Positions 18,185-29,595 of a stretch of 64,000 nt of DNA are shown here, in pieces; position 1 is the first letter of the stretch, and every line of letters starts with the position of its first letter. Both the position numbers and the translations under genes were made by a program. The DNA is from Microvenator marinus (GTDB lineage Bacteria; Myxococcota_A; Bradymonadia; Bradymonadales; Bradymonadaceae): positions 2,132,001 to 2,196,000 of the forward strand of contig NZ_CP042467.1 in the NCBI RefSeq assembly GCF_007993755.1. The letters run 5' to 3'. The notes beneath the pieces are model-generated. The model had not been told where the DNA came from. It saw nothing but the letters and a program-made list of their open reading frames with translations, and did not search any database.

Positions 18185-18937
18185 CTACATCGTAATCCCA
18201 CCGTCCACATCGATGCAACGGCCGGTAAAGTAATCACACTCAAAGATGAACCGAACGGCTTGGAAGATCTCTTCTGGCTTCGCGACACGACCAAGAGGCA
18301 CCTTCGAGACCATCTTCTCGAGCATCTCTGGACGCATGCCATCCAGAATCGGGGTCTGCACAAATCCAGGTGCCACGGCGCCTACACGAATCCCATGCTT
18401 TGCGAGCTCCTCACCCCAGAGCTTCGTATCAGCCACGAGCCCCGCTTTTGCTGCCGAGTAGTTCGACTGACCGCGGTTTCCATGCCGAGAGCACGAGGAG
18501 ATATTCACGATGACTCCGCCGTTATTGTCGCGAATCATCTGTGCTGCGACCTCACGAGCAAAGAGGAAGGGTCCAGTCAGGTCAACGTCGATCACTGCAT
18601 TCCAGTCATCGAGAGACATCGTGTGGAGCTCGCCCGTCTTTCGGTCCACGCGCACGAGGAGGCCGTCACGGAAGATGCCCGCGTTATTAACCACACCATG
18701 AACGGCACCAAACTTCTCAACGCACGTTTGCACTGACGCCTTCACGTCGTCCTCGCTGGTCACACTGCCAACGAACCCAACGATGCGGTCCGACTCAGCT
18801 TCGAGTGCATCGAGACCCTCTTTGTTCATGTCGAACGCCACGACCCCGGCACCGGCCTGCGCCAAATTCAGCGCGAAACAACGTCCAAGGCCGCTTGCTG
18901 CGCCGGTCACAATCACATTCATTTCTTTCAAATTCAT
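18185..18937 (-). CDS. Short-chain dehydrogenase/reductase (acetoacetyl-CoA reductase-like)
   Basis: This is a classical SDR of 250 residues with cofactor loop TGAASGLG (11-18), NNAG (84-87), catalytic Ser147/148, Tyr160 and Lys164, and the C-terminal DVDGG motif of FabG-like enzymes. Its start overlaps the phaC1 stop (ATGA), so it is translationally coupled to a PHA synthase. It is therefore a good candidate for the reductase that makes 3-hydroxyacyl-CoA, or oxidises it during granule turnover. Asp36 at the end of the second beta strand predicts NAD(H) rather than NADP(H), which differs from textbook PhaB. An alternative role as a general hydroxyacyl dehydrogenase cannot be excluded. Confidence 0.82.
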   Translation of the reverse strand: MNLKEMNVIVTGAASGLGRCFALNLAQAGAGVVAFDMNKEGLDALEAESDRIVGFVGSVTSEDDVKASVQTCVEKFGAVHGVVNNAGIFRDGLLVRVDRKTGELHTMSLDDWNAVIDVDLTGPFLFAREVAAQMIRDNNGGVIVNISSCSRHGNRGQSNYSAAKAGLVADTKLWGEELAKHGIRVGAVAPGFVQTPILDGMRPEMLEKMVSKVPLGRVAKPEEIFQAVRFIFECDYFTGRCIDVDGGITM

Positions 18938-20022
18938 GACTTTCCTCCTCGCCGCTTTGGCGATGCTTTCGAAGTTTTCTGAGCGTCTTCTGCTACTTCA
19001 ACACTTTCAGGTGCTGGATCTTTGGGTGGCTCATCCACCAGTGCTACCCGAGACTTTTTCGGTGATTTCTCCAGGGTTTCCAAGAAGAAATCCGTGATGA
19101 TTGGATAGAGGTCTGTTTTTGCCCTCGAGCCAACCACAGCCCCAACGTGGCCTCCCTTGACGGTGACCATGCGTTTGTCCTCGGCTCCCACCGAATCGTG
19201 CAACCCCTGAGCTGCCAACGGTGGGCAAATATGGTCGCTCGAAGTCGCGATGGTCAGCGTTGGGCATGTAATCTGGCTCAGATCGACGCGCTTGCCGTGC
19301 ACCCAATGCTCGCCCTTAACCAACTTGTTCTCCTGGTAGAGCTCCTTGATATAGGTCACATATGCCGCACCCGGAAATGGTATGTTGTCTGAGGCCCATG
19401 TATCCAAAGCCTCAAAAGAGTCACGGAACACCGGGTCGTGCGCCTTGTTCGCGAACGAAACCCATTTTGAAATCTGCGAAGTCGGACGCATCGACACAAA
19501 ACCAGATTGCATTTGTTGCGGCGCAACATTGCCCGCCTGCGCTATCACCTCAGGGTCAAACCAACGCGGGTCCGTCATTTCACCCAAGACGCCGGCATGC
19601 TCGAAATCAAAGGGCCCGGCTAGGTTAACGAATGAGGCAACGTGTTCTGGGTTTAGGGCTGTGTAGATGCCGGTCAGCGTGCCTCCCATGCAATACCCAA
19701 GCACACCGATCTTGTCTTCTCCGGTCACTCTCAAGACCTTTCGGAACGCGCGACCAAGGCGTGCAAGTACATCGTCCCAGTTTAGGTAGCGGTCTTCGTC
19801 ACGCGGCACGCCCCAATCCAAGCAGTACGTATCGAGGCCCGCCTCGACACACGCCTTTACAAGGCTCGCTTCCTCGTGAAGATCGATCACGTACCAGCGG
19901 TTGATAAGCGACGGAACCAGAAGGACCACCGGACCGGGGTTGGCCACCACTGGCCTAAACCGTGTCAACTCGGCGGTGCCATCGCGCATGACCACATCAC
20001 GTGGTGTGGGTGCAATACTCAT
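18934..20022 (-). CDS. phaC: Polyhydroxyalkanoate synthase, short (class III-like) form
   Basis: PhaC polymerises 3-hydroxyacyl-CoA into PHA at the granule surface. The 362-residue protein has the lipase-like box GYCMGG with nucleophile Cys111, Asp263 (SSDHICP) and His292 (GGHVGAV), plus the SLINRWYVIDL and DTYCLDWG motifs of the family. Its length is that of class III PhaC, which needs a PhaE partner. A charged Lys/Pro/Ser tail (about 318-362) is extra. The ATG at 20022 follows AGGA by seven bases; an in-frame extension to 20112 has no homology. It is the second gene of the phasin-phaC1-SDR operon. A paralogue lies at 28549-29595. Confidence 0.93.
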   Translation of the reverse strand: MSIAPTPRDVVMRDGTAELTRFRPVVANPGPVVLLVPSLINRWYVIDLHEEASLVKACVEAGLDTYCLDWGVPRDEDRYLNWDDVLARLGRAFRKVLRVTGEDKIGVLGYCMGGTLTGIYTALNPEHVASFVNLAGPFDFEHAGVLGEMTDPRWFDPEVIAQAGNVAPQQMQSGFVSMRPTSQISKWVSFANKAHDPVFRDSFEALDTWASDNIPFPGAAYVTYIKELYQENKLVKGEHWVHGKRVDLSQITCPTLTIATSSDHICPPLAAQGLHDSVGAEDKRMVTVKGGHVGAVVGSRAKTDLYPIITDFFLETLEKSPKKSRVALVDEPPKDPAPESVEVAEDAQKTSKASPKRRGGKS

Positions 20023-20068
20023 AGAATTTCCTGAATTCGAAGTTAGAAAAAGGTGAGCACTTGGGTAC

Positions 20069-20132
20069 GAAATGAGGTCCCGGACAAGGTTAAAGTGTCT
20101 GCTGAAACCCACGTACCCCGGGACCTCATTTC
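20069..20132 (-). repeat. 15-bp perfect inverted repeat between phasin and phaC1
   Basis: GAAATGAGGTCCCGG at 20069-20083 and its exact complement CCGGGACCTCATTTC at 20118-20132 flank a 34-base loop. On the transcribed (minus) strand the first arm contains the phasin stop codon (AAATGA), and the second arm ends about 47 bases before the phaC1 start. The stem has nine GC pairs, but no T-run follows it directly, so it is not a textbook terminator. A transcript-processing or stability element that sets different phasin and synthase levels is likely. Confidence 0.7.
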
Positions 20133-20386
20133 ATAGTCATAAACTCGACACTTCGCTTAGCGTTCTCGAGCATGGTCTGACGCATTTGCTCTTGTAGTTC
20201 GAGCTGGTAGTTCACGGTCGACTTGAAAATCTTGCTCATCTCGTCGAATTGCTTCATCGCCTGATCCACCGACTGACGCTGCATTTTTGCGGCTTCTTCG
20301 AACGCCGTAGTCATGCGCTCCATGGTGTCAGCGTTTGCTTTGTGGAAAAAATCGTTCGCTTGAGTTGTCTCTGTTTTTGCTGCCAT
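20126..20386 (-). CDS. Small phasin-like granule protein
   Basis: This 86-residue protein is helical, with amphipathic heptads (for example ERMTTAFEEAAKMQRQSVDQ) and no cysteines, as in phasins that coat PHA granules. It heads the operon that encodes PhaC1 and the SDR. The start at 20386 is fixed by a perfect AAGGAGG seven bases upstream; the longer open frame to 20491 runs through the promoter and operators. The control region has a strong sigma70-type promoter and three PhaR-type palindromes, as expected for a phasin gene. It could also act as the PhaE-like activator of PhaC1. No similarity beyond coiled-coil character can be judged by eye. Confidence 0.78.
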   Translation of the reverse strand: MAAKTETTQANDFFHKANADTMERMTTAFEEAAKMQRQSVDQAMKQFDEMSKIFKSTVNYQLELQEQMRQTMLENAKRSVEFMTMK

Positions 20387-20399
20387 TTCGGGCCTCCTT

Positions 20400-20410
20400 T
20401 TGCAGTGCAC
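20400..20410. promoter_or_regulatory. PhaR-type operator, copy 1
   Basis: TTGCAGTGCAC matches the TTGCANTGCAA palindrome in ten of eleven positions. It directly abuts the phasin Shine-Dalgarno (20393-20399), so a bound repressor would sit in the leader just downstream of the transcription start. Confidence 0.65.
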
Positions 20411-20430
20411 CATGCATAGGTTCACTTTTG

Positions 20431-20445
20431 TGTTGCAGTGCAACA
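20431..20445. promoter_or_regulatory. PhaR-type operator, copy 2
   Basis: TGTTGCAGTGCAACA is a perfect 15-bp palindrome around one central base. It overlaps the -10 box of the leftward phasin promoter and the expected start site. This is the classic position for repression, and it agrees with what is known of PhaR controlling phasin genes. Confidence 0.82.
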
Positions 20446-20470
20446 TAAGAACCCAAATAGCACTCGTCAA
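20442..20470 (-). promoter_or_regulatory. Sigma70-type promoter for phasin-phaC1-SDR operon
   Basis: Read on the minus strand, TTGACG (20465-20470) and TATGTT (20442-20447) are separated by exactly 17 bases. The -10 box is inside operator copy 2. The leader to the ATG at 20386 would be about 50 bases. Confidence 0.72.
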
Positions 20471-20480
20471 GTGATTTTCG

Positions 20481-20491
20481 TTGCATTGCAC
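20481..20491. promoter_or_regulatory. PhaR-type operator, copy 3
   Basis: TTGCATTGCAC matches the TTGCANTGCAA palindrome with one mismatch. It lies between the leftward phasin promoter and rightward phaR, 75 bases before the phaR ATG, where it could serve autoregulation of phaR as well as looping with the phasin sites. Confidence 0.6.
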
Positions 20492-20565: not shown

Positions 20566-21126
20566 ATGGTTAAGTTGATCAAGAAATACACAAACAGACG
20601 TCTATATGACACCGATGATAGCCGGTACATCACGCTTGATGAGCTCGCGGAGCTCATTCGAAAAGGGCATGACGTCAAGGTGATAGACGCCCAGAGTGAT
20701 CAGGATTTAACTCAGGCGACACTCGCGCAGATTGTTGTGGAGTCGAGAGGTGCAGCCAAACTGCTTCCAGTCCCGTTGCTCACGCAAATGGTCCGAATGG
20801 AAGACGATGCGCTGGCTGAGTTCATGAGCCTCTACCTGACCTGGTCTCTGGACATCTACTACGCCATGAAACAGGCACGGGTAGCCACAGGGGCAGATGC
20901 CTACCAGGAGTTCTTGGGGCGCTATGCACAGATGGCCACGATGCCTTTAAACATGGCGCGTGGGGGCTTGAATCTGGTGCGCGGAAAGCTCAAAAATGAA
21001 AAGGATGTAGCTGAGGCTCCGCGCGAAGAAGAAAACGAGATCGATTCCCTCCGAGACGAAATCAATGAACTCAAAGAACTCATCAAAGGGCTCGCCGAAA
21101 AGCCCAGAGGACGCTCAAAAACCTAG
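20566..21126 (+). CDS. phaR: PHA synthesis regulator PhaR
   Basis: PhaR binds nascent PHA and DNA, and represses phasin genes until polymer appears. The 186-residue protein opens with the diagnostic PHB_acc_N domain (about residues 3-62: LIKKYTNRRLYDTDDSRYITLDELAELI), then a PHB_acc-like region with LPVPLLTQMVRMEDDALAEFMSLYLTWSLDIYY, and ends in an acidic coiled coil. A weak TTGGAA (20502-20507), 17-base spacer and TACACA (20525-20530) could be its promoter. Three operator-like palindromes separate it from the divergent phasin operon. Its last 62 bases overlap the start of the next gene in another frame. A confident family call. Confidence 0.95.
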   Translation: MVKLIKKYTNRRLYDTDDSRYITLDELAELIRKGHDVKVIDAQSDQDLTQATLAQIVVESRGAAKLLPVPLLTQMVRMEDDALAEFMSLYLTWSLDIYYAMKQARVATGADAYQEFLGRYAQMATMPLNMARGGLNLVRGKLKNEKDVAEAPREEENEIDSLRDEINELKELIKGLAEKPRGRSKT

Positions 21127-22189
21127 TCCTGAGCGAGTTTTGGTCTTCGGGTGGTTTCTCGGGATTTTTGCGATCGCGTATTATCGGGCACTGGGTGGCA
21201 TTCCTCAGGATATGAGTGCGTATTTTGCTGCCGCGGATGTGATTGAGCAGGGATTGAGCCCCTATAGCGAGATCTCCAAATCACCGACATATGACGGCTT
21301 TCCGTATGTGTATTTCCCGGGGCTGCATCCACTCACCGAGGTGATCTTTGGAGCGCCAAAACAAGTCTTGGTGGGTATCGATTCGGTCTTGCGAGGCGGA
21401 CTCGCGGCGTTTTCGATTTGGGCCATCGCAAAGAAGCTAAAGGAGCTCCCGCCCTGGCCACTCTTGGTGCTTGGTCTCGCGTTTTTCGACCCATTTATCA
21501 CCGACTTTTTCGTTGGAAATCTCTCTACGTACATGTTCGCGATCTTCGCGTTCGTCCTTTGGATTGGCGAGCAAAAAGGGAGATTTAGAAACAAGATTGC
21601 AGGGTTGATTGCGGGGGTTGTACTCGGCGTTCTGCTTATGTTCAAACCCTTTTGGGGCATCGCCACGGCGTGGGTGGCCGCAACGTCCAAGCGATGGGAG
21701 TTGGTGTCTGGACTTCTGATAGGCGCGCTCGGAACTTTGGCCTGCGGGTGGATTTTCTACGCGTCCGAGATTGAGCCCTGGCGCGAGCTCGTACAATCCA
21801 TTCGAGTCTATTGGACGAGCTTTGACCTCGGAACCGCATCGCCTTGGCTCGTGCTGCCCGGGGCGCTCGCTTGGGGTGTTGGTGCGTGGCACGTTCGAAA
21901 ACGGCCCGACGCGTGGGTCTGGGCCTCGGCAACCCTTCTCTTCTGGCCGCGACTAGGCTTCTATTCATATCTGCTGGTCATACCGCTTCTTCTTTGGGCC
22001 ATAAAAACGTACGGCCGAAAAGCGCTGCTACTGGCTTTACCTTTCACTGTGGCTTTGACGCTTCCTCTTCACGCTTACACCGTTTTGAAGCTCGCTATTT
22101 TCTACGGATTTTGCCTTTTGTTGAGTGGCTTATGGCTACTGAGATCGCCTGATGTTGCACCGCAACAAACACTTGACACAAAAAGTTGA
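21065..22189 (+). CDS. GT87-type polyprenyl-sugar glycosyltransferase-like membrane protein
   Basis: This is a polytopic inner-membrane protein of 374 residues with about nine hydrophobic helices. The first periplasmic loop has an acidic start and QGLSPY (PQDMSAYF ... VIEQGLSPYSEI), as in the GT87/DUF2029 mannosyl/arabinosyl-transferase group that uses lipid-linked sugars. The annotated ATG lies inside phaR; a start inside the overlap is required because the first helix begins soon after it, although a TTG at 21140 is also possible. It is transcribed with phaR. A sugar-transfer role in a PHA locus is not known to me, and this could be a passenger gene. Its last codons carry operator copy 4. 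Confidence 0.68.
   Translation: MNSKNSSKGSPKSPEDAQKPSPERVLVFGWFLGIFAIAYYRALGGIPQDMSAYFAAADVIEQGLSPYSEISKSPTYDGFPYVYFPGLHPLTEVIFGAPKQVLVGIDSVLRGGLAAFSIWAIAKKLKELPPWPLLVLGLAFFDPFITDFFVGNLSTYMFAIFAFVLWIGEQKGRFRNKIAGLIAGVVLGVLLMFKPFWGIATAWVAATSKRWELVSGLLIGALGTLACGWIFYASEIEPWRELVQSIRVYWTSFDLGTASPWLVLPGALAWGVGAWHVRKRPDAWVWASATLLFWPRLGFYSYLLVIPLLLWAIKTYGRKALLLALPFTVALTLPLHAYTVLKLAIFYGFCLLLSGLWLLRSPDVAPQQTLDTKS
22153..22167. promoter_or_regulatory. PhaR-type operator, copy 4
   Basis: TGTTGCACCGCAACA is a 15-bp palindrome with one mismatched pair. It lies in the last codons of the GT87 gene, just upstream of the TTGACA box at 22173 that would drive the envelope operon. Confidence 0.62.
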
Positions 22190-22213: not shown

Positions 22214-22226
22214 GTTGCAGTGCAAC
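22214..22226. promoter_or_regulatory. PhaR-type operator, copy 5
   Basis: GTTGCAGTGCAAC is a perfect 13-bp palindrome around one central base, identical in core to copy 2. It sits 18 bases before the ATG of lipoprotein A, downstream of the likely transcription start, a repressing position. Confidence 0.8.
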
Positions 22227-22244: not shown

Positions 22245-23171
22245 ATGAACACACGGTTAATATTGTTGATCTCAACGCTGCTCTTGGGCGCCCCAGGCAC
22301 AGCATGTATTGATGCTGACGGCCCTCGCGAGCTTTATGAAGATGATTTGGGTGAAGACGCCGGCACTCAAGACATGGGTCTAGACAGCACCTCGGATATG
22401 CAGGTGGGGCCGGATATGGCTCTCGAAGACTCCGGACAAGACCAAAACACAGAAGACCAGGGCCAGCCCGGCAACTGTGTACCGAATCGTGATGGGGTAA
22501 TCGAGCGTGACGAGGTCACCCTACGCGCGGGCCTCAACGCCAAGTTCAAGGTCTCCACGCGTGCCGAATTCAATACCGCGCCAGAAGAAGTAGAAGGAGA
22601 GTCTGTTTGGGATCTGAGCGGAGACTTTGACGGCGACTCGCTCACTATCGTAGAGCTTCAGGAGCCCGATTCATTCTGGTTTTCAGCTGATTTCCCGGAC
22701 GCAACCTACGTGACCCAGCTCAGCGCTGACTCGGACCTCTTGGGAATCTTCAAGAGCAGTGAGACAGGGCTCGAACTCTTAGGAGTGGCCTCTCCAGAAG
22801 AAGGCTTCACACAGACCAAACTTGAGTACGACCCACCTGTTGAAGTTTTGAAGTTTCCAATCGAGGAAGGTTCACAGTGGGAAACTGAGTCATCTGTCAG
22901 TGGCACGGCGCTTGGGGTATTCTCCCTCTACGACGAAACCTACGTCACGCGTGAGGCAGGCCAAGGCATTCTCAAAACGCCTTTCGCTGACTTCCCTGTG
23001 ACCAGGCTTCGCGTTGATCTGGAGAGGGTTGTGGGCTTCGTCACCACCACCACGCGGCAATATGTCTGGGTTTCGGAGTGTTTTGGCACGGTGGGCACCG
23101 TTCGGTCGTCAGACAATGAAAGCGATATCGAGTTCTCGAGCCCCTCCGAGATCCGGAGGATCGCCCCTTGA
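22245..23171 (+). CDS. Lipoprotein A of PhaR-linked envelope operon (unknown family)
   Basis: This 308-residue predicted lipoprotein has a signal peptide ending in GTAC (Cys21), a DM/ED-rich linker (about 24-75) and a C-terminal domain of alternating beta strands. It is a paralogue of lipoprotein B at 25641-26465. Both have C-[VL]-P-N-x-D-G-x-I-x3-E just before the domain (here Cys78, loop 79-90), a stretch ending in the W-[VL]-x-E-C-F-G motif, and a final SE[IF]RR tail. The loop looks like an EF-hand that lacks its first acidic ligand. The ATG at 22245 is chosen because a longer opening runs through two operators. First gene of the operon; I recognise no known family. Confidence 0.75.
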   Translation: MNTRLILLISTLLLGAPGTACIDADGPRELYEDDLGEDAGTQDMGLDSTSDMQVGPDMALEDSGQDQNTEDQGQPGNCVPNRDGVIERDEVTLRAGLNAKFKVSTRAEFNTAPEEVEGESVWDLSGDFDGDSLTIVELQEPDSFWFSADFPDATYVTQLSADSDLLGIFKSSETGLELLGVASPEEGFTQTKLEYDPPVEVLKFPIEEGSQWETESSVSGTALGVFSLYDETYVTREAGQGILKTPFADFPVTRLRVDLERVVGFVTTTTRQYVWVSECFGTVGTVRSSDNESDIEFSSPSEIRRIAP

Positions 23172-24094
23172 AACTCGCCCACTCCATTCATCTCTTAGTC
23201 TTGGCGGGACTTCTGCAAGGTTGTTTGAGTTTTCATAACGGCCCGATCCCCGACGCTCCTCCGAGCGGCAAAAAGGATGTCGGGGTCACACATTACGTGG
23301 AGCTCGAGGGGTCGCGGATTCATTATCTGGAGGCAGGGGAAGGCCCGGCCGTGGTGCTGATTCACGGGTTCGCCTCTTCATTGGACGCCTGGAACACCGT
23401 GATTGGGCCACTCGCAAAGCACCGCCGTGTGATTGCACTCGATCTCAAGGGTTTTGGCTATAGCGACCGAGCCCCTGGCGACTACTCACCGGCGGCACAG
23501 GCCCGCATTGTGAACGCGCTCATGGAACATGTGGGCGCTCAGACTTTTGAGGTCGTCGCACACTCGTGGGGAGCTTCAGTGGCACTTAAGTTAGCCCTCC
23601 AAGAGCCCGAAAAGGTGGACAAGCTCGCCCTCTACGACGCCTGGGTCTATTACGAACAGCTCCCAACATTTTTTCAGTGGGCGCGCGCGCCATTCCTCGG
23701 CGATATGATGTTTGCCCTCTGGTATCGAGAGCGCCCGCAGGACAAGATTGCAGGAGCGTTCTACGACCCAAGGTATGTGACCCAAGAGCTCGTGGACACG
23801 GTGGAGACTGACCTCGCCATTCCTGGCGTGACCGCGGCTGCCCTTGAGGCCGTGCGCGGTCAGACCTATGAGGATTGGCAGCACCAATACAAGACTATCG
23901 AACAACCCACTCTTTTGCTCTGGGGCGAGAACGATGCTGTAACGCGGCTTGAGTTCGGAGAGCGACTGGCACGGGACCTGCCGAACGCCGAGCTCGTCAT
24001 CTATCCACAATGTGGCCACTTTCCGATGATCGAAGCGGCAAAGCAGTCGACCCGAGACCTGCTTGAATTCTTGCTTGCACCGGAGGCCCCATGA
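23168..24094 (+). CDS. Lipid-anchored alpha/beta hydrolase
   Basis: This alpha/beta-fold hydrolase of 308 residues is exported as a lipoprotein: LLQGC gives lipidated Cys19. Oxyanion motif LIHGFASS is at 64-71. The catalytic triad is Ser133 in AHSWGAS, Asp256 (GENDAV) and His284 (CGHFPMIE). It should cleave an ester, lactone or similar bond outside the inner membrane. Its TTG start overlaps the lipoprotein A stop (TTGA), with GGAGG eight bases upstream, and its stop overlaps the next start (ATGA), so it is translated as part of a chain. PhaR-type control suggests a hydroxyacid or fatty ester substrate, but this is inference; it lacks the usual features of secreted PHA depolymerases. Confidence 0.82.
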   Translation: MKLAHSIHLLVLAGLLQGCLSFHNGPIPDAPPSGKKDVGVTHYVELEGSRIHYLEAGEGPAVVLIHGFASSLDAWNTVIGPLAKHRRVIALDLKGFGYSDRAPGDYSPAAQARIVNALMEHVGAQTFEVVAHSWGASVALKLALQEPEKVDKLALYDAWVYYEQLPTFFQWARAPFLGDMMFALWYRERPQDKIAGAFYDPRYVTQELVDTVETDLAIPGVTAAALEAVRGQTYEDWQHQYKTIEQPTLLLWGENDAVTRLEFGERLARDLPNAELVIYPQCGHFPMIEAAKQSTRDLLEFLLAPEAP

Positions 24095-25641
24095 AGCTGA
24101 GCCGCCTTAGTGCCGCTATGGTCGTGCTAACTTTCACGGGCGCCGCCGCAGCGGAGCAGGCCCCAAGCCTCTCAACCCTTGGGTACGATATCCTTCACGC
24201 CCAAGAGCGTGTTGAAGTTGACGGATATTTTCGTTGGCGAGGCGAAGTCTTGAACAATTTGGACCTCGACCATGGGCTGACGCCGTCGGGGCTCCCACTC
24301 TATCCGGTGCCGCTATCAGGTGGCCAAACTCTAACCACCTCTGACATGAGGCTCAGGACCGATATCTCGATCTACTCGCCGCTCGGAGACGTGGCCGTTA
24401 AGGCACGTTTAGACGTGATCGATAACCTCTCGCTTGGCTCGACCCCATCCGGACCGCCCCAAACCACCACAACTCAAGACCCAACGCTACTGAGCGTCAA
24501 ACGTGCCTGGGCCGAAGTCTTGACACCGTTCGGTCTCTTGAGCGTGGGACGCATGGGAGCCCATTGGGGGTTAGGGATTTTGGCCAACGCGGGAGACTGC
24601 CTTGAGTGCGACTCCGGAGATGCTGCGGACCGCATCGCGTTTATCACCCCGATCGGAGGCCATATCCTGGCCGCTGCCTATGATATTGGTTACGTGGGAC
24701 CATGGGTGGAGCAGCGCCAGCAGCGGTATGTAGACATTGAGCCCTCAGACGACGTCAAAGCGCTCACATTCGCATTCTTGAACTACGACACTCCCCAAAC
24801 CTTGGAGCGGCGGAGGAATGCCGAGAGAGCTACCTTCAACTACGGACTGACGTTTTCGTATCGTTGGCAGACCGCAGACACACCGAGTTGGTATCTGCCC
24901 AACACGACGAGCACCGAAACCCCGGTCGTACCTCGGAATCTTAGCGCGTGGGCCACCGATATGTGGTTGCGCTTCGATTCTGCGTGGGGCCGCGTGGAGC
25001 TTGAGGCTGTATACGTCGGTGGAGAAATTGAGGATGCATCTCTTCTTCCGGGAGTCATCTACCCCGAACCGCTGACGACGAATCAATGGGGTGCTGCGCT
25101 CCAAACCGAGTTTGGCAGAAAGGAGTGGTGGGCGAGCTTTGGGGTGGATGCGGGCATCGCAAGTGGAGATGGTGCACCGGGGTTCGGAGTCAATCCTGGA
25201 CCTTTTGATTCTCCCGCTGAGCCAGGCGATCTAGATGGTCCTCAGTCGCGTCTGCCTTCGGACAACGCGGTCAATAATTTCAAGTTTCATCCGGACTACC
25301 GTGTCGACCAGATCCTCTTTCGGGAGATCATCGGTACGGTAACGGATGCCGCTTATGTGCGGCCTCACGTAGACTTCGTCTTCGGTCAGGTCGGCCAAGG
25401 TAATTTTCGGTTCGAGCTCGCTGGCATTTACTCCCAGGCGCTGAATGCCGCGTCCACGCCGGGACAAGAAGCGCCGCTTGGAATCGAGCTCAATCCATCG
25501 CTCAAATGGGAAGGCACGGCTTTTTCGGCGGCGCTTGACTACGCGATCTTGATGCCACTTTCTGGGATGAACAACCCGAACCGAGGCCTTGAGGCGAGCG
25601 AAGCTCAACTGCTTAGACTCCAACTTTGGACACAATTCTGA
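24091..25641 (+). CDS. Outer-membrane beta-barrel protein
   Basis: This exported protein of 516 residues has a signal peptide (cleavage near AAA-EQAP, residues 20-24) and many amphipathic strands with aromatic girdles, ending in aromatic Phe (LRLQLWTQF), the classic outer-membrane signature. It has long Asp/Pro/Gly-rich loops and resembles large barrels common in delta-proteobacteria (TIGR04551-like by impression, not verified). Start ATG overlaps the hydrolase stop (ATGA), and its stop overlaps the next start (TGATG). In this operon it may form the channel or display platform for the hydrolase and lipoproteins. Substrate unknown. Confidence 0.75.
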   Translation: MKLSRLSAAMVVLTFTGAAAAEQAPSLSTLGYDILHAQERVEVDGYFRWRGEVLNNLDLDHGLTPSGLPLYPVPLSGGQTLTTSDMRLRTDISIYSPLGDVAVKARLDVIDNLSLGSTPSGPPQTTTTQDPTLLSVKRAWAEVLTPFGLLSVGRMGAHWGLGILANAGDCLECDSGDAADRIAFITPIGGHILAAAYDIGYVGPWVEQRQQRYVDIEPSDDVKALTFAFLNYDTPQTLERRRNAERATFNYGLTFSYRWQTADTPSWYLPNTTSTETPVVPRNLSAWATDMWLRFDSAWGRVELEAVYVGGEIEDASLLPGVIYPEPLTTNQWGAALQTEFGRKEWWASFGVDAGIASGDGAPGFGVNPGPFDSPAEPGDLDGPQSRLPSDNAVNNFKFHPDYRVDQILFREIIGTVTDAAYVRPHVDFVFGQVGQGNFRFELAGIYSQALNAASTPGQEAPLGIELNPSLKWEGTAFSAALDYAILMPLSGMNNPNRGLEASEAQLLRLQLWTQF

Positions 25642-26465
25642 TGCGATACTTACTCTTGATTCTCTTGCTCTCAGGATGTGCGGACAATGTGACCCCACCG
25701 GTGTCTATCGCGCCGTGGGATGGGGATGCCCCTGCAACGCCCGAGTGCCTCCCCAACCTTGACGGGAGGATTGATGCCGATGAGCTAGCACCCGGATTTG
25801 GAGTACCAGCGAATTTTGTGGTTAACGCCCCTGGTACGACCGTTGAGCTCGATCTCAACGGATTGCGCGACGCTTCAGGAGCGCGGGTTTGGGACTTTAG
25901 AGGAGTCTCGCAAAGTGACCGAGAGCTACAAGTTCAGGCTCAGACCGTGGAAGGAACGTGGTTCGAGTCTGAGTTTCCAGGCGCCCAATTCACAACACCT
26001 CTTGACCCTCGTGGTGTGGAACTCGGAGTTTATTCACACTCAGACAACGGACTCTTTTTGCACGGGTTCGTAAGCAGCGATCCCGAGAGCAACACCTTGA
26101 CCCAGATGCGCTACACCGAGCCGCTGCTCCTCTACCCATTTCCGCTCGAAAATGGTGATGAGTGGATATCAGTCGGTGAGGTCGTCAATGGCCAGTTTCG
26201 AGGACTGCCGTATGCGGGTCGCGATACCTATACCTCGGTGGTTGCTGAGACCGGCGAGGTCTGGCTGGACTCGATCGAGTTTACCGATGTCCTTCAGGTC
26301 AAGACACTCGTGCAGGTGCAACCGGCTGTCGGAGCATCCACAAGCAGGGTGCAGGTCTCATGGCTTTTCGAATGTTTTGGAGAGGTGGTTCGCGCGGCCA
26401 GCGAAGATGGCGAAACCGACCTAGATTTCTCAAGAGCTAGCGAGTTTAGACGATTAGGTTTTTGA
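25641..26465 (+). CDS. Lipoprotein B of PhaR-linked envelope operon (paralogue of A)
   Basis: This 274-residue lipoprotein has a very short signal peptide with lipobox LSGC (Cys13). It lacks the long acidic linker of A but shares its layout: C-L-P-N-L-D-G-R-I at residues 36-44, a central VWDF/E-x2-W-F-x-S-[AE]-F-P region, WLFECFGE, and the ending SEFRRLGF. The ATG at 25641 overlaps the barrel gene stop (TGATG); an opening to 25626 would lack a signal peptide. It ends two bases before a perfect PhaR-type operator. The duplicated lipoproteins flanking the hydrolase and barrel suggest a complex with two homologous subunits. Confidence 0.75.
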   Translation: MRYLLLILLLSGCADNVTPPVSIAPWDGDAPATPECLPNLDGRIDADELAPGFGVPANFVVNAPGTTVELDLNGLRDASGARVWDFRGVSQSDRELQVQAQTVEGTWFESEFPGAQFTTPLDPRGVELGVYSHSDNGLFLHGFVSSDPESNTLTQMRYTEPLLLYPFPLENGDEWISVGEVVNGQFRGLPYAGRDTYTSVVAETGEVWLDSIEFTDVLQVKTLVQVQPAVGASTSRVQVSWLFECFGEVVRAASEDGETDLDFSRASEFRRLGF

Positions 26466-26467
26466 TT

Positions 26468-26486
26468 CATGTTGCAGTGCAACATG
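26468..26486. promoter_or_regulatory. PhaR-type operator, copy 6
   Basis: CATGTTGCAGTGCAACATG is a perfect 19-bp palindrome, the longest in the set. It lies directly after lipoprotein B and 44 bases before the PhaE-like/phasin-like gene, so it likely controls the PhaE-like - acyl-CoA synthetase - phaC2 operon. Confidence 0.82.
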
Positions 26487-26529
26487 AAACTCATTATGGT
26501 CCTTTATGACCAAAAGCAAAGGAGACTTT

Positions 26530-26811
26530 ATGATGTGGCAAATGTGGAAAAAAGGATTCGATCAGTGGGAAGCAACAACGGCCAAATACCTCGAAGAGGT
26601 GATTCGAAACCCTGCCGTACTAAAGGCTTCCGGAGACATGCTCAATGGCTCCATGAAGACCAAAGCACAAACCGAGAAGTTCATGTCTCAGTGGTGGTCC
26701 ATGATGGGCCTTCCAACGCGCACCGATCAGGAGCGTACCCTCCACGCGCTCAACCAGCTTCAAAGCCGTATTCTCGACCTTGAGGAGAAACTCGAAGCAC
26801 GCGGTGAGTAA
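26530..26811 (+). CDS. Small PhaE-like/phasin-like protein
   Basis: This 93-residue protein is rich in Trp/Met/Lys at the N-terminus (MMWQMWKKGFDQWEATT) with a C-terminal coiled coil (LHALNQLQSRILDLEEKLEA). This resembles the C-terminal region of PhaE subunits and PHA-granule phasins, which activate short PhaC. Start at ATG 26530 with AAAGGAG five bases before it. It is followed two bases after its stop by the acyl-CoA synthetase and then phaC2. It likely partners PhaC2 in the same way that the phasin at 20126 partners PhaC1. The function is inferred from context and composition. Confidence 0.72.
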   Translation: MMWQMWKKGFDQWEATTAKYLEEVIRNPAVLKASGDMLNGSMKTKAQTEKFMSQWWSMMGLPTRTDQERTLHALNQLQSRILDLEEKLEARGE

Positions 26812-26813
26812 TC

Positions 26814-28541
26814 ATGGACATTACGCCCTATCTCGACCTTAGAATCGCACCACGAGCCGTATTCGATAGCCTGCCAGAGAGGCGTGCCCGCCCGAGGTTT
26901 ATGGTGCCAGACGGCAAGGACTGGCGCGCTGTGACTTGGCAAGCCTTTGCCGAACAGATTCAGGCTATCGGCACCTACCTGATGCTTGGACTCGGTCAAG
27001 AGAGCGGCGTTAAACCCGGCGAACGATCTGCAATCCTAGCGAATAACCGGGTTGAATGGATTTCCGCGGCCCTTGGAATCCAAGCGGTTGGCGGCGTGAT
27101 GGTTCCCATCTACCCTTCGAGTACCGATGAGCAGATCGGCTACATCGTCGACCATAGCGACACACGGGTGCTCTTTGTGGACTCAGCCGAGCTCTTAGAA
27201 CGGGTTGTCGGCGCGTGGGACGACCTTGGCAGGGTTGAGAAGGTTGTGTTGTTCGACACCGTAGATCTTGGCCAATTGGCGGCCAACCTACGAGCCAAAA
27301 ACCTACGATGCCCAAGCGTCACCGAACTCAGCGCCCGGATTGTGGTTTGGGAGGATGCGATAAGACTAGGGCAGGCGCTCATCGCAGAACGACCGGATGC
27401 ATTCTTCCAGACCATGGAAAAGGTCTCTTTGGACCAAGCCGGTGTGATGCTTTACACCTCGGGAACTACAGGGCCGCCAAAAGGCGTTCCGCTCACGCAC
27501 CGCAATATCGGCGTCAACGGGCGCGACTGGCTTCAATCGAATGCCTCTCTGATCGACGAAAATTCGGTGGATCTTCTCTGGCTTCCGATGAGTCATATCT
27601 TTGGTTTTGGCGAAGCATGCTTGGGGAATTCGTTGGGCTTTACGTCTTACCTTTCAGACCCAGCTACAGTCTTAACTCGACTCCCTGAAGTTCGACCCAA
27701 TGTCTTCATGAGCGTACCCAGGTATTTCGAGAAGCTAGCCCAACTCGCCAGTACCGAACGAGACGCGAAATCACGCTCAAAGAAGTTGGCAGAAATCAGC
27801 GGGGGCAGGTTGAAGTTCTGTCTCTCAGGTGGTGCCGGCCTCAAACGCGAAGTCAAAGAATTCTTCCACGAGTGCGGGCTCCTCATTATCGAAGGCTATG
27901 GACTTACCGAAGCGAGCCCAACTCTGACATTGAACCGTCCGGATGCATTCCGTTTCGATACCGTTGGAAAGCCCCTCCCCTCCGTTGAGATCAGACTTGG
28001 GGAAGACTCCGAGATACTCGCCCGTGGCGAATCCATCTTTGGCGGCTACCACAAGGATCCGAGCGCGACCCGAGACGCTTTTACTCAGGACGGCTGGCTC
28101 AAGACCGGAGATCTTGGCAGATTCACCGACGACGGATTTCTGCAGATCATAGGACGAAAGAAGGAAATCATTGTCACTGCTGGAGGTAAAAACATTGCCC
28201 CTGGTAACATAGAAGTAAAATTTAATGATGACCCCTTTATTGCTCAACTCGTGGTCTTTGGTGACGCAGAGAAATATTTGACAGCCGGTGTCTGGGTCCA
28301 CCCAGAAGCGATCGAAAAGAAGCTCGGCAAGAGCGCGTCACCGGACGAAATCAAAAGCTTCTTAAAACCTAGAATTGAAGCGGTAAACGGCGAGCTAGCG
28401 AAGCATGAGACGATAAAAGACTTTTTGGTTTTCGAGGAGCCACTGAGTGTTGAGAACGGATTCCTTACACCGACACTAAAGGTCAAACGCAACCTGGTCT
28501 ATCAGGAGTTTGGTCCTCGCATTTCTGAGCTCTATAAGTGA
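26814..28541 (+). CDS. Long-chain acyl-CoA synthetase (AMP-forming, FadD/FACS-like)
   Basis: This enzyme activates fatty or hydroxy acids to acyl-CoA using ATP. The 575-residue protein has the AMP-binding P-loop YTSGTTGPPKG at residues 214-224, GYGLTE, the A8-type motif GDLGRFTDDGFLQIIGRKKE and a C-terminal lysine motif (TPTLKVKR). It resembles the long-chain (FAA/FadD15) subgroup with its TxGK-type ending. It sits between a PhaE-like gene and phaC2 with only 2 and 7 bases between genes, so it probably supplies CoA esters to that synthase. The exact chain length or hydroxyl preference is unknown. Confidence 0.9.
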   Translation: MDITPYLDLRIAPRAVFDSLPERRARPRFMVPDGKDWRAVTWQAFAEQIQAIGTYLMLGLGQESGVKPGERSAILANNRVEWISAALGIQAVGGVMVPIYPSSTDEQIGYIVDHSDTRVLFVDSAELLERVVGAWDDLGRVEKVVLFDTVDLGQLAANLRAKNLRCPSVTELSARIVVWEDAIRLGQALIAERPDAFFQTMEKVSLDQAGVMLYTSGTTGPPKGVPLTHRNIGVNGRDWLQSNASLIDENSVDLLWLPMSHIFGFGEACLGNSLGFTSYLSDPATVLTRLPEVRPNVFMSVPRYFEKLAQLASTERDAKSRSKKLAEISGGRLKFCLSGGAGLKREVKEFFHECGLLIIEGYGLTEASPTLTLNRPDAFRFDTVGKPLPSVEIRLGEDSEILARGESIFGGYHKDPSATRDAFTQDGWLKTGDLGRFTDDGFLQIIGRKKEIIVTAGGKNIAPGNIEVKFNDDPFIAQLVVFGDAEKYLTAGVWVHPEAIEKKLGKSASPDEIKSFLKPRIEAVNGELAKHETIKDFLVFEEPLSVENGFLTPTLKVKRNLVYQEFGPRISELYK

Positions 28542-28548
28542 GTAGACG

Positions 28549-29595
28549 ATGATCTCTCGAATATTAAATATCAAGCGCAAGCTCGTTGATGAAAAGGTTC
28601 CTGTCGGCCAAACTCCAGCTGACGTCATATTCTCCGAGAATAAGTGGCGCCTGCTTCGATACAGATCTGAGTCGTCGACCGGAACTCCCGTACTTCTGGT
28701 GCCTTCGCTCATCAACCGTCACTACGTGCTCGACCTTATCCCAGGTAAGAGCTTTGCCGAGTATCTGGTGGAACAGGGGCATGATGTCTTCATCATCGAC
28801 TGGGGAACTCCGGGACGAGAAGACCGATATCTGGAGTTTGAGACATTCGTACAAGACTATATTGGGCGTGCGATACGCAAGGCTTGTCAGGTATCTGGGC
28901 ACCCCAAAATCCACATCCTTGGATATTGTCTTGGTGGCCTGATGACCACCATTCATGCGGCTTTGAACCCTGAACACATCCTTACCCTCACCAATCTTGC
29001 GGCTCCGGTATCCTTTGAGGACGAAGGCCTCCTGAGCGTGTTTAGCCGTGAAGTGCCTCTTGACTTGGAGGCTCTCGTCGCGGCGTTTGGAAACGTACCT
29101 TGGCCGCTGATGCAGTTTGGGTTTCACCTGCTTCGCCCAACCATGACGCTCTCCAAACTGGCCTATATGTGGGAGAAAGCCGAGGACGATGAGTTTCTGG
29201 ATGGTTTCTTCGCGATCGAAACCTGGGGTAACGATAATGTGAGTTTCCCAGGGCAAGCCTTCCTGACCTATATCAACACGCTCTACAGGCAGAATCAGCT
29301 GATTCGCGGCGAGTATCACGTACGCGGCCGGGCGGTAGAATTGGCCCAGATTCAATGCCCCCTTTTGAACATTGTCTTTAAGCACGACAATATTGTGCCC
29401 GCCGAGTCTGCCGCAGTTTTGAACGAGGTCGTGAGTTCCGAAGACAAGACGCTTCTTGAGATCAACGGGGGCCACGTGGGTGCTGTGGTTTCAAGAAAGG
29501 CCTCCACAACGCTTTGGCCGGTCGTTTCTCAATGGTGGAGAGCCCATGATCAGAATGAGAGCGAAGAGTGCCCAACCCTTCTGATGCACGGCTAA
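28549..29595 (+). CDS. phaC: Polyhydroxyalkanoate synthase, second short paralogue
   Basis: This is a 348-residue PhaC with nucleophile Cys127 in GYCLGG, Asp280 (KHDNIVP) and His309 (GGHVGAV); the SLINRHYVLDL and HDVFIIDWG segments agree with the first PhaC, which it resembles throughout. It lacks the basic C-terminal tail of PhaC1 and has a different N-terminus. It is seven bases downstream of the acyl-CoA synthetase, so it probably uses hydroxyacyl-CoA formed from free acids. Two short synthases in one locus are unusual, and they may differ in substrate or form a hetero-oligomer. Confidence 0.92.
   Translation: MISRILNIKRKLVDEKVPVGQTPADVIFSENKWRLLRYRSESSTGTPVLLVPSLINRHYVLDLIPGKSFAEYLVEQGHDVFIIDWGTPGREDRYLEFETFVQDYIGRAIRKACQVSGHPKIHILGYCLGGLMTTIHAALNPEHILTLTNLAAPVSFEDEGLLSVFSREVPLDLEALVAAFGNVPWPLMQFGFHLLRPTMTLSKLAYMWEKAEDDEFLDGFFAIETWGNDNVSFPGQAFLTYINTLYRQNQLIRGEYHVRGRAVELAQIQCPLLNIVFKHDNIVPAESAAVLNEVVSSEDKTLLEINGGHVGAVVSRKASTTLWPVVSQWWRAHDQNESEECPTLLMHG

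Follow-up and report, generated by a model that had tools for sequence, protein, structure and literature searches.

Four contiguous genes of Microvenator marinus, at 22245-26465 of the 64,000-nucleotide stretch of DNA analysed here (the window), encode two lipoproteins (lp1 and lp2), a lipid-anchored hydrolase and an outer-membrane beta-barrel. They lie among genes of PHA synthesis and sites of the PhaR type, in the following order:

18185-18937, minus strand: SDR oxidoreductase adjoining the second PhaC (PF13561, E 7e-51)
18934-20112, minus strand: second PhaC (relatives with 53-70% identity at the syntenic position)
20126-20491, minus strand: phasin-like protein (by sequence and position)
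20432-20444, no strand assigned: PhaR-type operator between the phasin-like gene and phaR (GTTGCAGTGCAAC, exact)
20566-21126, plus strand: PhaR, PHA-responsive transcriptional repressor (Pfam PF07879, E 8e-27)
22154-22166, no strand assigned: PhaR-type operator upstream of a TTGACA element (GTTGCACCGCAAC, exact to GTTGCANNGCAAC)
22214-22226, no strand assigned: PhaR-type operator between the putative promoter and lp1 (GTTGCAGTGCAAC)
22245-23171, plus strand: lp1, lipoprotein with an acidic linker and a predicted YmcC/GfcB-like beta domain (residues ~88-308)
23168-24094, plus strand: lipid-anchored alpha/beta serine hydrolase, TTG start (Pfam Abhydrolase_1, E 4e-39)
24091-25641, plus strand: outer-membrane beta-barrel, short form of the TIGR04551 family (360.3 bits; predicted structure)
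25641-26465, plus strand: lp2, lipoprotein paralogous to lp1, without the long linker (homology to lp1)
26471-26483, no strand assigned: PhaR-type operator upstream of the phaE-like gene (GTTGCAGTGCAAC)
26506-26811, plus strand: PhaE-like PHA synthase subunit, short at ~100 aa (PF09712, 35.7 bits against a cut-off of 25.7)
26814-28541, plus strand: AMP-forming acyl-CoA ligase (PF00501, E 1.5e-63)
28549-29595, plus strand: PhaC, class III-like PHA synthase (TIGR01836, E 5.7e-88)

The four open reading frames are joined by overlaps, exactly where the sequence-only reading had put them: TTGA between lp1 and the hydrolase gene, ATGA between the hydrolase and barrel genes, and TGATG between the barrel gene and lp2. 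The junctions recur in relatives: the step from hydrolase to barrel measures exactly -4 at 64 of 78 loci and that from lp1 to hydrolase -4 at 50 of 71, barrel to lp2 being less strict than these two (the start codon counted was the one nearest to the preceding stop, which biases toward overlaps). Judged from these sequences, such recurrence is not chance. Overlapping genes speak for coordinated expression and for that alone: to conclude, as had been done, that the coupling implies a stoichiometric complex is to over-read it. A multi-spanning membrane protein is encoded at 21065-22189, between phaR and lp1, and overlaps the end of phaR; no counterpart was found in the other loci searched, and it is not counted in the module.

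A search of GTDB genomes with a profile of the barrel gave 109 relatives, the best 80 of which were read; all are Myxococcota-type, 'Deltaproteobacteria'-type or uncultured, and most of the loci are in metagenome-assembled genomes. For these best 80 of 109, and with denominators confined to loci that have enough contig on the relevant side, lp1 and the hydrolase gene stand ahead of the barrel gene in 58/58, lp2 follows it in 56/56, and phaR adjoins the module in 54/58; downstream come phaE (51/56), the ligase gene (52/56) and phaC (49/56). Where there is contig on both sides, phaR, the four genes, phaE, ligase and phaC are all together in 40 of 46 loci. Ten near relatives keep the whole order, upstream genes included, some of them running off contig ends. 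The gene order, whose lack of conservation the sequence-only reading had named beforehand as one thing that would refute it, was thus found conserved across the phylum, and with it a strong link to the PHA synthesis genes. In a panel of 58 genomes the module is present in 13 of the 26 relatives that have PhaC and in none of the 32 that do not (p 3e-6, a test that, like every co-occurrence test given here, ignores shared ancestry).

Departures from the common order exist. In family f3 (L078-L080) the phaC and ligase genes are remote versions that have exchanged places, and in L080 a PhaJ/MaoC-type hydratase gene stands behind them; in a few loci (L129, L136) the stretch read contains no phaE and neither ligase nor phaC. 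In a divergent minority of modules (L129, L132, L144), whose hydrolases are ~40% identical, the PHA genes that normally adjoin are partly or wholly absent. Family f2, the closest of the others, is without the four genes and has phaR-phaE-ligase-phaC (L173) or phaR-phaE-phaC (L171, L172). Since some genomes keep phaR-phaE-ligase-phaC without it, the module is, on this comparison of genomes, an add-on to the PHA genes.

The window contains four exact copies of GTTGCANNGCAAC and no more, at 20432, 22154, 22214 and 26471. In the 5.85-Mb genome GTTGCANTGCAAC has five copies: three in the cluster (at phasin/phaR, lp1 and phaE), one at a distant symporter gene, where it forms a perfect operator 17 nt upstream of the start, and a fifth (genome 4798715) inside a recD-like reading frame, which is taken as chance and not as a regulatory site. 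The operator core, TGCNNNGCA, is the core of characterised PhaR sites, published as CTGCNNNGCAG / YGCRNYGCR, and in S. meliloti, phasin promoters have the -35 element between paired PhaR sites (PMC12542648). Of 64 loci, 29 have a site scoring at least 10 of 12 upstream of lp1, where shuffles would give 0.7. PhaR-type control of the module, claimed from the window alone, is consequently well supported at the level of sequence by the operators, the published motif and the lp1-upstream sites across the phylum. That two operators flank the likely promoter stands as regards the sites, those at 22154 and 22214 lying on either side of TTGACA (22173-22178); as regards the promoter it stands less well, the -10 element being weak and a promoter scan giving no match at lp1.

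Are the four genes, then, general envelope genes that merely fell under the PhaR switch, adjusting the envelope to granule-filled cells, for example, with no carbon flowing between the module and PhaC? The f2 genomes, with phaR-phaE-(ligase)-phaC and no module, and a barrel family without assigned function would both agree with this, but the tight adjacency to the ligase/phaC operon is kept across many families, the catalytic triad of the hydrolase is invariant, and carriers are linked to the module (below); we regard the proposal as very improbable.

PhaR scores 102.2 bits against TIGR01848, slightly below the cut-off of 109.45. The protein at 28549-29595 is PhaC-like, at 295.3 bits under the curated TIGR01836 cut-off of 365.3; its Cys127, Asp280 and His309 are present in 58 of 58 sequences, and it probably works as PhaC. 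The PF09712 match of the PhaE-like protein covers only the C-terminal quarter of the PHA_synth_III_E domain, and its gene probably starts at 26530 rather than 26506, because AGGAG lies immediately upstream of the former. On the minus strand, the second PhaC has its nucleophile Cys in 37 of 38 sequences and its Asp in all 38; the SDR oxidoreductase is found in 38 of 80 loci and homologues of the phasin-like protein, whose true start is probably internal, in 10 of 80. What the cluster shares with class III PHA synthase loci (phaE-phaC under PhaR control) is a PhaE-like subunit, a PhaC with Cys-Asp-His, PhaR and PhaR sites, although PhaE is here only ~100 aa long. We know of no class III PHA locus that includes an outer-membrane hydrolase, barrel or lipoproteins.

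The triad reported for the hydrolase (Ser133-Asp256-His284) is intact, and it is invariant in 70 of 70 homologues, 69 of which also have the lipid-anchor Cys19. Family scores are of no use as a guide to substrate, since the models for acetoin-dehydrogenase E2, PcaD, haloalkane dehalogenase and PHA depolymerase all match, far below their cut-offs. An Esterase_PHB (PF10503) domain is absent among the Pfam matches of the hydrolase at E<=1.

The lipoproteins are paralogues, as had been said: lp1 retrieves lp2 at E 2e-29 and 35% identity. The family occurs in 74 of 379 genomes sampled across the phylum, nearly always as two copies ~3.5 kb apart. Among 70 lp1/lp2 sequences Cys21 is conserved in at least 90%, and Cys78 and Cys279 are invariant. 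In family f3 (L078:11966-14716, L079, L080:5410-8058) one protein of ~900 residues, encoded ahead of the hydrolase, carries three fused lp domains in tandem. Neither lp1 nor lp2 has a Pfam match at E<=1 or an NCBIfam family, and they are consequently not members of the GfcB/YmcC family by sequence. The AlphaFold model of lp1 (mean pLDDT 85.9, ordered from about residue 80 onward) is closest to YmcC/GfcB-like lipoproteins (4fvs, 3fzx and 2in5, Z 8.2-11.0; best Foldseek E 1.8e-3), with lipid carriers at lower Z (LmcA 7.0, MTTP 6.2, LolA 5.1). The apparent likeness is that of lipoproteins with comparable predicted beta domains; identity is 7-13%, the lp proteins have an acidic linker, a conserved Cys pair and a CxPNxDG motif, and capsule genes are not seen alongside. 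A PDB sequence search with the lipoproteins gave a weak EF-hand match only (E 0.09). The motif CxPNxDGxIxxxE resembles an EF-hand loop, yet it lacks an Asp at the first ligand position, and calcium binding is for that reason not claimed.

The barrel belongs to TIGR04551 (NCBIfam): it scores 360.3 bits against the curated cut-off of 300 (E 2e-107) over positions 2-519 of the 519 in the model, and the family name carries no function. Most relatives, and the window's own genome, also have long homologues (~700 aa) without the operon. The one in this genome, at G000:C1:5710705-5712189 (L088), is TIGR04551-like, with an open frame of ~715 aa. The barrel has no Pfam match at E<=1, which places it by sequence in neither the AlgE nor the FadL nor a TonB-dependent/plug family, and a PDB sequence search with it gave no match. 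Its AlphaFold model (mean pLDDT 88.9) is nearest in fold to AlgE (4b61, Z 25.0, rmsd 4.3 over 358 residues; also the top Foldseek match), MOMP (24.9) and OccK2 (23.2), the OccK/OprD channels lying at Z ~20-23; FadL is absent from the 50 fold matches listed. The predicted fold is thus like that of AlgE and OccK/OprD/MOMP, with Z 20-25 over 308-369 residues, while no Pfam family is common to both sides and alginate or polysaccharide genes are not seen alongside the barrel gene. At 90% conservation the barrel has 17 Arg and no Lys. Conserved Arg pairs (R48/R50, R87/R89) alternate along the strands and therefore probably face the lumen of the barrel.

The alginate exporter at the head of the fold matches invites an opposite construction: barrel and lipoproteins would secrete a polymer or complete its making (polysaccharide or oligo-hydroxyalkanoate), and the hydrolase would trim it, the whole being turned on when PHA is plentiful. 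The YmcC/GfcB likeness of the lipoproteins is in keeping with this, as is the control of exopolysaccharide genes by PhaR in S. meliloti (PMC12542648). Yet AlgE has no clear lead over MOMP and the Occ uptake channels (Z 23-25), the module is conserved together with a ligase that activates carboxylates, with PhaE/PhaC and with a Na+ symporter, and the gene clusters common to many loci contain no further conserved polymer-export neighbour. Export is improbable on balance and retains some weight because AlgE tops the fold matches.

The symporter is that of the distant operator: a Na+/solute symporter (SSF) gene at G000:C1:5739271-5740875 (L170:4269-5876, minus strand), far from the pha cluster. 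About twelve loci (L070/L135, L073, L111, L139, L147, L152, L154, L161, L167 and others) have an orthologue of it within the cluster or next to it, and in nine other loci an MFS carrier unrelated to the symporter directly precedes lp1; the two occur together in none, and one or the other is in the cluster in some 20 loci besides the window's. The MFS carrier of L113 (4767-5981) ends a few bases upstream of lp1. Operators before symporter orthologues are clear in the window's genome and in L176, L182 and L189, and are not seen in most others, some of those inside the cluster included. In the 58-genome panel the symporter is present in 15 of 26 genomes with PhaC and 0 of 32 without (ancestry ignored). 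It is also present in genomes with PhaC that have no module (G021-G023), and therefore does not need the module; f2 genomes lacking the module have it too. A PDB sequence search with it gave no match. To judge from its family, a Na+ symporter would run inward, and uptake is thereby favoured.

We propose, with a probability of about 0.5, that the module is an outer-membrane acquisition set: an ester would be split outside the cell and its acids, probably hydroxyacids, taken in for PHA. The following steps are envisaged: 1) The lipid-anchored hydrolase would cut the ester, either on the cell surface or within the periplasm. 2) The two beta-shell lipoproteins would hold hydrophobic substrate or hand over products. 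3) The Arg-rich barrel would pass the freed carboxylates through the outer membrane. 4) The SSF symporter (the MFS carrier in other species) would move the acids across the inner membrane. 5) The acyl-CoA ligase (26814) would activate them and PhaE/PhaC (26506, 28549) would polymerise them. 6) PhaR would repress the whole set until PHA is present and titrates it. A surface device that cleaves and imports an ester had been proposed from the window; its import route has gained backing from the operator-bearing symporter and from the likeness of the barrel to carboxylate channels, while what we infer is which ester is cut, which way transport runs, whether the lipoproteins face the outside and what part they play. 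In favour of the proposal there are also the conserved gene order, the co-occurrence of module and symporter with PhaC, the operators, the linked carriers and the catalytic residues that the enzymes keep. Counting against it are the top barrel match, which is an exporter, and the best matches of the lipoproteins, which include YmcC/GfcB, linked to capsule systems, together with the symporter of genomes that have PhaC and no module and the few loci (L129, L136) where the PHA genes downstream are not seen.

As to substrate, the requirement for a carrier in the inner membrane and for a channel that is polar speaks for acids that are short or hydroxylated, rather than for long-chain fatty acids. 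Examples would be 3-hydroxyalkanoates or oligomers of these, which lysed prey could supply from its PHA. The ligase has the A10 Lys, A7 Asp and A8 Arg in all 62 sequences reaching those positions, and its nearest relatives are the adenylation domains of carboxylic-acid reductases (CAR) and FadD5, with FadD11 also close; this likeness fits fatty acids equally. The set could accordingly be one for scavenging lipid, its hydrolase a lipase or esterase acting on prey lipids or triacylglycerol, its lipoproteins binding fatty acids, its barrel importing them, and its ligase making acyl-CoA that beta-oxidation and PhaJ feed to PhaC. The hydratase of L080 and the weak fold likeness of lp1 to lipid carriers would suit such a route, and bradymonads, which are without FabB/F and FabI, may take prey fatty acids (PMC7460792). 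The barrel, on the other hand, is not FadL-like by sequence (it has no Pfam match) and its conserved make-up is polar and Arg-rich. Carriers of the SSF and MFS type are linked, moreover, though long-chain acids, to our knowledge, need neither at the inner membrane. Lipid scavenging is the less likely reading, and one of real weight on account of the ligase type and PhaJ.

Uptake of hydroxyacids admits a more particular version. Bradymonads live as predators and build up PHA as they feed (PMC7460792), which speaks for the proposed uptake in general, and the PHA of prey has been the subject of work on Bdellovibrio, another predator (PMC4834554). It is conceivable, if somewhat unlikely, that in Myxococcota predators the PHA oligomers of lysed prey are cut on the predator's own surface, the hydroxyacids enter by a dedicated channel and the predator's own PHA is rebuilt from them, polyester to polyester, with the storage polymer steering the set through PhaR. 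A strong Esterase_PHB (PF10503) protein is found in 5 of the 11 genomes that have PhaC and not the module (G022, G023, G025, G029, G051), against 0 of the 13 that have it, a comparison that is small, post hoc and made with relatedness ignored. It is as if the one had replaced the other, PF10503 being a family that also holds other esterases.

Two known systems resemble the proposed acquisition set in outline. The Sus-type uptake loci of Bacteroidota likewise combine an anchored hydrolase, binding lipoproteins and an outer-membrane channel in one operon; the module is without a TonB plug or SusD domain (Pfam search), and its substrate would be an ester, not a glycan. FadL-FadD with a lipase similarly joins ester cleavage, outer-membrane passage and acyl-CoA ligation; the module differs in a barrel that is not FadL by sequence, in its four-gene coupling, in PhaR control and in an inner-membrane carrier. 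Searches of open-access papers, which could miss an older description, found no account of TIGR04551 or of the four-gene cluster. The sequence-only reading had known of no described system of this form, which holds for the literature searched, with the reservation that the barrel family already had a name.

If the proposal is true, it would give a function to TIGR04551, named but unexplained, and to two unnamed lipoprotein families, and a sensor of storage polymer would be seen to govern uptake at the cell surface. The hydrolase, channel, carrier and ligase would together constitute a testable route for the uptake of hydroxyacid esters, of possible use in PHA biotechnology. For the predatory Myxococcota, it would be a route by which the material of prey is converted into PHA.
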